From Lewinella sp. W8 (GTDB taxonomy: Bacteria; Bacteroidota; Bacteroidia; Chitinophagales; Saprospiraceae), in assembly GCF_004375085.3 (NCBI RefSeq), contig NZ_SNAQ03000008.1:1-64000 (forward strand): a stretch of DNA of 64,000 nucleotides. The letters run 5' to 3'. Below the pieces are notes generated by a model that ran no database searches, had not been told where the DNA came from, and saw only the letters and a list, made by a program, of their open reading frames with translations. The translations under genes were made by a program, and so were the position numbers. Shown piece by piece: positions 19,677 through 43,897 of this stretch; position 1 is the stretch's first letter, and every line of letters begins with the position of its first letter.

Positions 19677-20116
19677 CTCCTTCAATACTGTTCAAGCCTC
19701 CCCCGGGTTGAATCCCGCCCGGGAAAACTATGGTTAAAATTTTGCTCGCCCCGGAAACATTGGGCTCCGGAGTTAGGCTGTTCCCTGAGGTTTCATCAGC
19801 GATTCCTGTAGGTAAGCACATTGATTTTTCCTAATGATAGCATCGTGTTGCGAAGTTTTTCTACCGGTGAAGGAGCTCTAGATTTCGTAACATCGGGCGG
19901 TAGTTGAATCTCCTTCATGGGGTGAAAAATGAAAAGTCTATGTTGTAACCTAGAGCAAGCCTTTTCCGGAAAGATGTTCTGCTACGGGAATGGCTCGGCG
20001 TGGAACGCCTCGACCGGTTTTTGCGGGACAACACTCCGCAGTCATGACCGGGCAAAATGGCCGAAAGTCCCGTACCCAAAAGCCCAAATGGGTTCTGGGT
20101 TTTACCTTCGCCTGTA
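19677..20116. other. 440-base spacer between divergent genes, no gene found
   Basis: It holds the 5' sides of two divergent genes. An inverted pair TGAAGGAG / CTCCTTCA stands at about 19868 and 19911, and TACCTTCG (20103-20110), one base off the -7 consensus, lies seven bases ahead of the helicase ATG. Short frames in it look like noise. Confidence 0.4.
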
Positions 20117-41223: not shown

Positions 41224-42078
41224 ATGACCCCACAACTAGGCAACGCCAACTTTGAAAACTACATTGGCGCCACCGACGGCTATTCCGAAATGGCCTATCA
41301 GATGGTGGCCCACCTGCTCACCCTCGGCTATGCAGTAATGTTTGCCGCGCTGATCTACTTCATCCTTACCCTCCGGTACGTAGCGCCCCGTTTTCGGATG
41401 TCCAACATCCTTTCGGTCGTCGTGATGGTATCGGCCGGTCTGCTGCTCTATTCCCAGAGCGAAAACTGGAAAAGCTCCTTCGTCTACGACGCCGACGCCG
41501 GTGTCTATCTGTTGAATGCCGGTGGCGACCTGTTCAATAACGGTTACCGCTACCTGAACTGGCTCATCGACGTCCCCATGCTGCTCTTTCAGATGCTCTT
41601 CGTAATTACCCTGACCAAAAGCAGTTTCAGCAGCGTCCGTAACCAGTTCTGGTTCTCCGGCGTAGGTATGATCGTAACCGGCTACATCGGCCAGTATTAC
41701 GAAGTCTCCAACCTCACGGCCTTCTTCGTGTGGGGCGCCATCTCTACGGTCTTCTTCTTTCACGTCCTCTACCTGATGAACAAAATCATCAAGGAAGGGA
41801 AAGAAGGGCTGGAGGAGAGCGGTAAAAAGGTACTGTCCACCATCTGGATCATCTTTCTGATCAGTTGGTTTCTCTACCCCGGCGCCTACCTGATGCCCTA
41901 CCTCGGTGGACTGGGAGAAGACGGCCTGCTCTTCAACGAAAGCGGCGTGGTGGGTCGTCAGATGACCTACACGGCCGCCGACATCATTTCCAAGGTGATC
42001 TACGGCGTCCTGCTCGGTGTGCTGGCGCAAAAGATCAGTACCAAGGAAGGCTATGACTACACGAAGCAGCTGGGGTAA
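41224..42078 (+). CDS. sodium-pumping rhodopsin (NDQ type, KR2-like)
   Basis: A 284-residue light-driven sodium exporter of the inner membrane with seven helices. The pump motif on helix C is intact: Asn112, Asp116 and Gln123 in RYLNWLIDVPMLLFQ. The retinal lysine is Lys257 in ADIISKVIYGVLLG, with Asp253 four residues before it. The N-terminus TPQLGNANFENYIGAT is nearly that of Krokinobacter KR2, whose numbering matches here up to helix F. A two-residue insertion in the GLGEDG loop shifts the lysine from 255 to 257. No retinal-making genes (blh, crt) or second rhodopsin lie beside it, so retinal must come from elsewhere in the genome or outside. A terminator follows. Confidence 0.97.
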   Translation: MTPQLGNANFENYIGATDGYSEMAYQMVAHLLTLGYAVMFAALIYFILTLRYVAPRFRMSNILSVVVMVSAGLLLYSQSENWKSSFVYDADAGVYLLNAGGDLFNNGYRYLNWLIDVPMLLFQMLFVITLTKSSFSSVRNQFWFSGVGMIVTGYIGQYYEVSNLTAFFVWGAISTVFFFHVLYLMNKIIKEGKEGLEESGKKVLSTIWIIFLISWFLYPGAYLMPYLGGLGEDGLLFNESGVVGRQMTYTAADIISKVIYGVLLGVLAQKISTKEGYDYTKQLG

Positions 42079-42105: not shown

Positions 42106-42142
42106 CAGCGCCACCGGAGAATTCGGTGGCGCTGTTGTTTTT
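42106..42142 (+). terminator. Rho-independent terminator of the rhodopsin gene
   Basis: CAGCGCCACCG (42106-42116) pairs perfectly with CGGTGGCGCTG (42124-42134), followed by TTGTTTTT, 28 bases after the stop codon. Confidence 0.9.
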
Positions 42143-42156
42143 ACGGTCGTTATGTG

Positions 42157-42541
42157 CTCGGACTGGAAGTCCTCGACCGGTGCCTCCCGGTCGAGGAGCT
42201 CCGCTCCGAGAGCATATCGGGTGCGGTTTTTATCCCCGCTTCGGCTCGGACTGGAAGTCCTCGACCGGTGCCTCCCGGTCGAGGAGCTCCGCGCCGAGAG
42301 CATATCGGGTGCGGTTTTTATCCCCGCTTCGGCTCGGACTGGAAGTCCTCGACCGATTACCCGTCCGTTCGAAAAGCTCCGCTCCGAGAACATATCGGGT
42401 GGGTTTTTCATCCCCACTTAGGCTCGGACTGGAAGTCCTCGACCGATTACCCGTCCGTTCGAAAAGCTCCGCTTCGAGAACATATTGGGTGGGGGCTTTC
42501 ATCCCCACTTCGGACTCGGACTGGAAGTCCTCGACCGGTGG
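42157..42541 (+). repeat. REP-like repeat array, left of the RAYT gene (four units and a partial fifth)
   Basis: Units begin CTCGGACTGGAAGTCCTCGA at 42157, 42245, 42333, 42423 and 42515, with lengths 88, 88, 90 and 92, the last partial. Each has a small GGACT-AGTCC hairpin. In units 1 and 2 the block CCTCGACCGG pairs with CCGGTCGAGG around a six-base loop. Units 3 and 4 replace this with ATTACCCGTCCGTTCG. A GAGAGCATAT/GAGAACATAT part and a TTTTTATCCCC or CTTTCATCCCC part follow. Several long frames across the array are only repeat artefacts. The partial unit ends 12-16 bases from the RAYT stop codon. Confidence 0.85.
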
Positions 42542-42553
42542 TGCTGGCCAAAA

Positions 42554-43213
42554 TCATTGGTCGGTAGAAAACAGTTCTCGATAGTCTGCGTGGACGAAAA
42601 TACCCGGCCATTCTCTCCAACTGTTGACTAATCCAGCTTTCCAGGGATTATTCAGGATATACCATATCACCCTATTCAGCTTTTGCGGACGAACTTCTCG
42701 ATCAAAATAATTCGCGGCCCAGAAGGGCTTTCCGGTACGCCCTAAAAATTGATTAGCCACCTGCGCCGTATAACTTTTGTGCCGTTGCATTACTTTTCCC
42801 AGGTCTACTTGATCCTTACTGGCGGGAACATCCAATAAGACATGTACATGGTTACCCATTACACAGCAGACCAGTAACTCCACTGAACCTTCTCTAGCCA
42901 AAAAGTTCCAGGAATCTAGTACTACCCTTCGAATTGTTGGCTGCTGTAAATACAGGGGACCCTTGTGCGTAGAATTTAATAATTGGTCCAATTGACGTCC
43001 TAATTCCTGATAAATATTTCTCAGGATTTTATTTCTTTTCAACATACCATGATTTACATCATAGCCAAGCAAGTTTCGCTCTAGTTTCTGTATCTCCCGA
43101 TGTCGCTTTTCACGTAATGCGACCAGCTTATCCTTTGGTATACTCCCCGCTAACCTATAGACTACATGGCAGGGACTGCGAGTGATGGGGCGATGAGATA
43201 TATTGACAAACAT
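42554..43213 (-). CDS. REP-associated tyrosine transposase (RAYT, Y1/HUH family)
   Basis: A 219-residue single-strand DNA transposase-like enzyme. The HUH metal site is His122-Val-His124 in VMGNHVHVLLDVP, the catalytic tyrosine is probably Tyr148 in QRHKSYTAQVANQ, and GKPFWAANYFDREV with a late VIWYILNNPWKAGLV completes the TnpA_REP pattern. Such proteins nick and join at palindromic REP repeats. Here repeat arrays stand on both sides of the gene. The ATG at 43213 is chosen; an in-frame ATG at 43276 would add a hydrophobic stretch not typical of the family. The gene is AT-richer than its neighbours, which suggests arrival by transfer. Confidence 0.9.
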   Translation of the reverse strand: MFVNISHRPITRSPCHVVYRLAGSIPKDKLVALREKRHREIQKLERNLLGYDVNHGMLKRNKILRNIYQELGRQLDQLLNSTHKGPLYLQQPTIRRVVLDSWNFLAREGSVELLVCCVMGNHVHVLLDVPASKDQVDLGKVMQRHKSYTAQVANQFLGRTGKPFWAANYFDREVRPQKLNRVIWYILNNPWKAGLVNSWREWPGIFVHADYRELFSTDQ

Positions 43214-43531
43214 TATTACATAATTCCACAAAAAAACAAACAAATAAAATAAAATTTTCGTAACCCACACAAACAATTAAATTTCGATAACCCCCATAAA
43301 TGAATCACCACCCGCAGCTGACGGTGTCAGGCCTTATTCCCAACAAAGGTTTATCGCTCGCTATTGCCCGAATGAGATTAATCGTCACCAATCATTTAGA
43401 ATAAGACTAGAGCAATTCGGACCACCCTGGTTTGGCTCCCTAGAATTTGCATGACCATCTCTGTTTAACTCACGCTGTTGTGGCTCAAAATTCGTGATGA
43501 CTCCTGTTTGCTTGAACTCGGTTTATATGCA
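43214..43531. other. AT-rich spacer upstream of the RAYT gene, no gene found
   Basis: The part next to the gene contains two near copies of AATTT(T)CG(A)TAACCC (about 43252 and 43279). No open frame with family-like sequence and no consensus promoter were found. Confidence 0.4.
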
Positions 43532-43700
43532 CTCGGACTGGAAGTCCTCGACCGCTGTCTCACCCGGGCGAGAAGCTCCACTTCGAGAGCATATTGGGTG
43601 GGGGCTTTCATCCCCGCTTCGGCTCAGACTGAAAGTCCTCGACCGGAGGAGCTGAAAAGGATTTATATCCCTGTTAACCCCTCGGGCTGGAAGTCCTCGA
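43532..43700 (+). repeat. REP-like repeat array, right of the RAYT gene (three units)
   Basis: The head motif recurs at 43532 (full unit to 43622), at 43623 (variant CTCAGACTGAAAGTCCTCGA) and at 43681 (variant CTCGGGCTGGAAGTCCTCGA). The first unit carries the CATATTGGGTGGGGGCTTTC part as in unit 4 of the left array. All units on both sides of the transposase gene have the same orientation. Confidence 0.8.
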
Positions 43701-43870: not shown

Positions 43871-43897
43871 AAAAAAAAACAGCGCCACCGGGCGCTG
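43871..43897 (-). terminator. second terminator-like hairpin, reading left
   Basis: CAGCGCC pairs with GGCGCTG (43880-43897, four-base loop) and is followed on the minus strand by nine T's (43871-43879). It is a strong terminator by shape. Confidence 0.65.

Follow-up and report, generated by a model that had tools for sequence, protein, structure and literature searches.

Results

A RAYT gene between arrays of one hairpin repeat

The window analyzed here is a stretch of 64,000 nucleotides from Lewinella sp. W8 (contig NZ_SNAQ03000008.1, positions 1 to 64,000), and our subject is a gene on its minus strand for a REP-associated tyrosine transposase (RAYT; REP, repetitive extragenic palindrome), which lies between tandem arrays of one hairpin repeat (Table 1). 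This arrangement, put forward in the original prediction, is confirmed. The protein has a Y1 HUH domain with the HuH motif and single tyrosine that mark the RAYT / TnpA-REP family, in the form of NHVH (H122, H124), W165 (W motif WA) and YILNNP, with a HuH-Y distance of 63; the HuH and Tyr columns were invariant in the alignment and, by analogy, Tyr185 within YILNNP would be the catalytic tyrosine. PF01797 was matched at 33.5 bits (cut-off 23), and the predicted model matched the structure of E. coli TnpA-REP (PDB 4er8). Profile, motifs, fold and flanking repeats thus uphold the assignment of the gene. It occurs once in the genome, one gene copy per REP type as in other RAYTs, and the next most similar gene there is 40% identical. 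The GC content of the gene is 42%, that of the window 56% and that of the left array 61%; a higher AT content than in the surrounding DNA is also seen for most other RAYT genes of the genus.

Five exact copies of the repeat head, CTCGGACTGGAAGTCCTCGA, make up the left array at spacings of 88, 88, 90 and 92 bases, and Tandem Repeats Finder (TRF) called this array with a period of 88, 4.3 copies and 90% matches. On the far side of the gene there is one exact head and two variants, so the predicted count of five copies (the fifth a head only) and three holds, except that two of the three are inexact. The last head of the left array ends at 42534 and the low end of the stop codon is at 42554; the gap is therefore 15–19 bases, according to how the end of the repeat is defined, rather than the 12–16 claimed earlier. 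All eight heads have the same orientation and are best read on the minus strand, the coding strand of the RAYT, as CGGTCGA-GGACT-TCC-AGTCC-GAG. The GT[AG]G at the 5′ foot of the hairpin that characterizes the GTAG REP superfamily is missing, and the tag here is GGTCGA.

The predicted 88–92-base unit is borne out as a spacing and not as the elementary repeat: conservation covers about 22 nt, and a full unit is made up of this REP, an inverted partner REP with a different stem, and a spacer. The partner is perfect in unit 1, has one mismatch in unit 2 and is altered in the remaining units, so that the unit at 42156–42243 has the two inverted REPs of a REPIN or bacterial interspersed mosaic element (BIME), and units 3–5 hold an altered version. 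Accordingly, fold z-scores were −3.85 and −3.99 on the two strands of unit 42156–42243 vs. −0.99 and 0.34 for units 42333–42422 and 43532–43622. The larger palindrome noticed earlier in some units is this REP/inverted-REP pair and is indeed confined to some of them. The full grammar of the repeat was matched at eight places in the window, seven at the RAYT locus and one at 19995; contrary to the earlier impression that no other copy is seen in the window, a variant with stem GGCGT does occur away from the locus.

Table 1. Positions of the RAYT gene, its arrays and related repeats in the window
Feature	Position	Strand	Basis
RAYT gene, 219 aa from likely ATG at 43213	42554..43213	-	open frame 42554–43276
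Left tandem array, four 88–92-base units and a fifth head, directly beyond the stop codon	42156..42540	-	TRF, head positions
REP 1, GGTCGA-GGACT-TCC-AGTCC-GAG	42157..42178	-	exact 22-mer, grammar match
REP 2, sequence as REP 1	42245..42266	-	exact 22-mer, grammar match
REP 3, sequence as REP 1	42333..42354	-	exact 22-mer, grammar match
REP 4, sequence as REP 1	42423..42444	-	exact 22-mer, grammar match
REP 5, sequence as REP 1, closest to the stop codon	42515..42536	-	exact 22-mer, grammar match
Inverted partner REP of unit 1, GGTCGA-GGAGC-TCC-GCTCC-GAG, larger palindrome with REP 1	42189..42210	+	fold, grammar match
Inverted partner REP of unit 2, one stem mismatch	42277..42298	+	inverted pair I8
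Exact REP, other side of the gene	43532..43553	-	exact 22-mer, grammar match
Variant head, 2 mismatches	43623..43642	-	
Variant head, 1 mismatch	43681..43700	-	
Dispersed REP relative (stem GGCGT/ACGCC) that terminates a longer dispersed element	19994..20015	-	grammar match, BLAST

Copies across the genome

The source genome (G000, a 6.18-Mb draft of 91 contigs) was compared with 20 genomes of the same genus. The exact 22-mer occurs 14 times in the source genome, on contigs C5, C33, C55 and C88, and three more copies differ by one mismatch. The looser frame CTCGNNNTGGAANNNNTCGA gave 53 matches and its reversed control none; as the grammar is moreover restricted to eight places in the window, the head family goes beyond chance, even though at least one of the 53 matches is a chance one because its stem is unpaired. 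The copies are dispersed between genes, as is typical of the REPs of a RAYT: only four of 52 placeable copies, all in one array on C91, fall inside coding-scored frames, vs. 6818 of 9000 positions drawn at random from the same stretches. With arrays counted copy by copy, 15 copies lie between convergent and three between divergent genes.

In a set of 51 copies selected solely by the core frame, the two preceding bases were G in 51 and 50. Among 14 distinct repeats, pairing was preserved in 91.4% of cells, 18 of which were changed on both sides; the resulting covariation score of 0.567 was reached by none of 500 shuffles, and the best slid pairing scored 0.141. Five well-paired stem types in the genome have one unchanged frame in common.

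The outcomes that were to break the link between gene and repeat, namely no copies elsewhere in the genome or the same arrays in genomes without the RAYT, did not occur: the 22-mer is found on four contigs, and exact copies are absent from all 20 congeners, which also lack a close copy of the gene. An array on C33, a contig for which no Y1 gene is listed, belongs to the same genome as the window RAYT. The repeat is retained as the likely REP family of this RAYT.

A GGNNGA tag in related loci

RAYT relatives were found in 19 of the 20 congeners (all but G018), none of them a close copy: identity to the window RAYT was at most 45% over most of the length and 50% over a 112-residue fragment. As seen in a search of the flanks for repeated hairpins, most surveyed RAYTs sit among repeats of their own. 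GG..GA stands directly 5′ of a perfect 5-bp stem at 22 of 33 clade-A loci (138 hairpins), vs. 1.1 loci on average and four at most in shuffled flanks, and eight for the next best of 256 such patterns; it occurs at one of 14 clade-B loci and at none of 20 other RAYTs. One of the 22, L099, is probably a chance match, since its loop begins with C and its repeated hairpin, judged by eye, begins GGTCAA. The loop starts with T in 134 of the 138 hairpins, and GA follows in 129. Under equal weighting of loci, nothing further is conserved within 25–30 bases.

The pattern was chosen on the same data in which it was counted, and independent support comes from two clade members outside the genus. Lewinella cohaerens (L256) has GGTCGA-GCCGC-TGT-GCGGC twice, and a Saprospiraceae metagenome-assembled genome (L275) has GGCTGA-CATGC-TCT-GCATG on each side. 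Of 115 RAYTs placed in a tree, 47 form a clade (SH-aLRT 100, the Shimodaira–Hasegawa-like approximate likelihood ratio test) that holds all 21 tagged rows, with none among the other 68, and the tag is absent from the 26 of 28 readable loci of a phylum-wide search. The suggestion of a distinct RAYT/REP lineage is supported.

Within clade A the residues after W are A, E, N, D or T. A subclade of four (L135, L142, L145, L155) is without GG..GA, and three of its members have GGYTCG hairpins; L135 and L155, at the same chromosomal site, differ in the loop-closing pair by a compensating change. Clade B (L123, L130, L136, L143, L154, L160), nested near the window RAYT, has repeats of roughly the form GTACAAT-GCNGCC-TCC-GGNGC, an apparent further change of tag. 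The genus also carries RAYTs of a WQ clade (L103, L124, L131, L144, L150, L157), most of which are accompanied by repeats bearing GTAG-like tags and by ACGGCTTCAGCCGT-type hairpins; two tag systems therefore coexist in the genus.

Stem variation and presence or absence of the locus

The window 22-mer has no exact copy in the 20 congeners and four one-mismatch copies in G005 and G011. Likewise, the 22-mer of a RAYT of G003 (L118) has 12 exact and eight one-mismatch copies in its own genome, no exact copy in the other 20 genomes and one with a mismatch in G007. A stem is common to 22 of 210 locus pairs, most of them at 38–50% protein identity, and among clade-A pairs within one genome the stems differ in seven of eight, L109 and L111 having the same one. 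In our reading, stems turn over fast while their pairing is constrained.

Of the seven RAYT pairs compared, five occupy conserved sites. At a site beside PhoD, G009 and G017 carry the RAYT with its arrays; both are missing from G004, G013 and G016, where the left neighbor and PhoD adjoin, and also from G012 as far as its left leader shows; this comparison concerns a sister subclade and is compatible with gain or loss. In two species (L119 in G003, L149 in G015), the RAYT segment is inverted between flanks conserved on both sides, as expected from recombination between inverted REPs.

Neighboring and other repeat-bearing loci

The upstream neighbor at 41224–42078, which by eye we take to resemble a microbial rhodopsin, has relatives 74–75% identical in three of the 20 congeners. 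Two terminator-like stretches in opposite orientation, 42106–42142 and 43872–43891, have the word CAGCGCCACCGG in common and bracket the RAYT and its arrays. At 19850–20021, a dispersed element some 170 bases long has the GGCGT-stem REP at its end: 23 of 28 non-self BLAST pieces, from 15 repeat-holding loci of the genome, stop at 20020–20021, 5–6 bases beyond the tag, as if the REP marked the end of the element.

Elsewhere in the genome, the window-REP array on C33 (L168, 135004–135503), the contig for which the Y1 family search lists no gene, has spacings of about 92 and 38 bases. GGCGT-stem arrays on C44, C91 and C11 (L167, L169, L173) have periods of about 178, 165 and 176 bases and also hold GGCTTGCTCCGCAAGCC hairpins resembling those beside another RAYT of this genome, L101. 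Two further Y1 genes of a different type (L104, C91:154448; L105, C5:127183) have CTCGAAGCG-type repeats near start and stop.

Discussion

Based on the gene family and fold, the flanking and dispersed repeats, the stem covariation, the clade-specific tag, the extragenic placement, the species-private copies, and a gene with arrays present or absent at one matching site of a sister subclade, we consider it highly probable that two statements hold jointly. The locus is a REPtron, in which a RAYT gene is accompanied by its REPs, hairpin sites recognized by its product in single-stranded form, and its RAYT is a member of a lineage that occurs chiefly in the genus including Neolewinella and has REPs tagged with GGNNGA instead of GTAG. 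From these observations we infer binding, cutting, strand choice, movement and the role of each part of the REP. The REP would fold when single-stranded, e.g. during replication; the RAYT would bind the tag, the T-first loop and the paired stem, largely irrespective of the stem letters; and Tyr185 with the HVH motif would nick and rejoin DNA next to the REP. REPs and REP pairs would then be the mobile part, spreading to intergenic sites, with arrays arising by joining beside existing REPs, which could keep REPs alike within a genome. In GTAG systems, according to the available part of PMC8266576, selection of the cleavage dinucleotide involves the tag, and the base that opens the loop can be critical. 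If GGNNGA worked analogously, it would select a different dinucleotide, which simple complementarity predicts to be TC. Whether GGNNGA replaced GTAG as the hairpin label, together with a change in the putative tag-reading protein segment and with the stem letters nearly free, we regard as an even question.

Several observations weigh against the REPtron of this lineage as described. The window RAYT scores 65.6 bits with the NCBIfam model REP_Tyr_transpos, under its cut-off of 80, and 11 of the 33 clade-A loci are without GG..GA plus a perfect 5-bp stem. Suspected tag-reading residues have counterexamples, and in the flanks of the tagged loci no fixed cleavage dinucleotide or TC site stands out outside GG...GA. 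The loci of REP types GGCGT, GACGT, GCACT and GGAGT of the source genome, when read, had no RAYT of their own. Finally, stem distance does not track RAYT identity (Spearman −0.08, p 0.23, 21 loci), and co-evolution of stem and protein is therefore unsupported.

The last two points bear on a lock-and-key relation, in which a RAYT would recognize its own REP by the stem letters, and the four types without a RAYT beside them would be relics of lost ones. Such a relation is possible but doubtful: exact repeats private to single species, similar hairpins kept in four close ortholog pairs (L111/L137, L119/L149, L140/L152, L143/L154) and the differing stems of seven of eight within-genome pairs would agree with it, and it is at odds with the missing correlation, with the pairs that have the same stem, including L109 and L111 within one genome, and with the five well-paired stem types on one unchanged frame. 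That the RAYT is instead a domesticated enzyme with another task, and that the repeats grow and spread by slippage and recombination only, seems unlikely to us. Slippage leaves single REPs on other contigs (L186, L198) unexplained, and neither the clade-specific tag nor the joint absence of arrays and gene at the PhoD site would follow, despite the regular tandem form of the arrays, the inverted L119/L149 segment as a sign of recombination, and conserved sites such as a resident gene would have.

A role of the hairpins as transcription terminators or RNA stabilizers, with the presence of the gene incidental, would be in keeping with their extragenic position and the excess of convergent over divergent sites. 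We nevertheless find it very improbable. Rfam gave no match up to E 1, the hairpin of a single REP is weak (−3.4 kcal/mol as DNA) and lacks a T run, and a terminator-like hairpin belonging to the upstream gene itself lies at about 42106–42142. Such a role would also leave unexplained the tag and why it is confined to a single RAYT clade; the REPs may still have a secondary RNA role. The least credible alternative, to which we give hardly any weight, is that gene and flanks form an autonomous IS200/IS605 insertion sequence. Such elements have Y[IV]ENQ (listed for subclass 1.1) and near-identical multiple copies, and here the motif is YILNNP, the gene is single-copy, and there are many hairpins per gene, most of them elsewhere.

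The biochemistry of REP recognition by RAYTs covers few GTAG systems, as described in the available part of PMC8266576. In a clade where a different tag and the first base of the loop are fixed and the paired stems vary freely, natural variation separates the parts of the REP and predicts what the enzyme reads. Since tag is fixed and stem variable in most sister loci of the genus, the group is a natural test of how such enzymes choose DNA. If the GGNNGA reading is true, one genus holds about twenty private enzyme–repeat pairs, a natural series from which the recognition rule (tag, first loop T, pairing) could be read. Species-private REP families within a single genus make the tempo of REP turnover measurable.

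Comparison with known systems

RAYTs with REPs in Bacteroidetes are already known: two of the subclasses listed by Quentin et al. 2018 (PMC6006769) are rich in Bacteroidetes and have REPs or REP-like structures. The view of such pairs as peculiar to gammaproteobacteria is not supported. The following comparisons rest on the motifs and descriptions listed there. Subclass 2.7 of TnpA-Y1 has the same HuH ([ND]HVH) and Y (YI[LR][NQ]NP) motifs and a similar length (median 213 vs. 219); however, its W motif is WQ instead of WA, its REPs are long with GT[AG]G instead of GGTCGA and a 5-bp stem, and its hosts are Cyanobacteria and a few other phyla. The mostly Bacteroidetes subclass 2.6 also has flanking repeats without GT[AG]G and of weak structure, but differs in its Y motif (YIH[QN]NP), WQ and a median HuH-Y distance of 82. 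Class 3 agrees in NHVH, W[TA], REP-like structures and a tag ending in GA (CnGA), whereas its Y motif ends in EQ and its hosts belong to other phyla.

Compared with E. coli TnpA-REP (PDB 4er8), the identity is 17% over the aligned part, the tag is GGNNGA instead of GTAG, and stems are 5 bp; the predicted model has long helices at 27–47 and 53–81 before that at 92–107, for which the shorter E. coli protein would, by aligned length, have no room. A REP followed by an inverted REP recalls REPINs and BIMEs (the two stems of the pair differ in seven of 21 tagged loci and agree in nine, the other five having REPs on one strand only), yet the tag is another one and the units stand in same-direction tandem arrays around the gene. 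CGTC-tagged repeats are likewise palindromic without GTAG and in part from Bacteroidetes, but have stems of 8–9 bp and the tag CGTC and, in the available part of PMC3733652, are reported without a transposase. The combination of a GGNNGA tag with such stem renewal within one genus was not found in the literature searched, which did not extend to supplements. The RAYT/REPtron kind is known already, and what appears to be new here is the GGNNGA tag and the degree of stem renewal in one genus.
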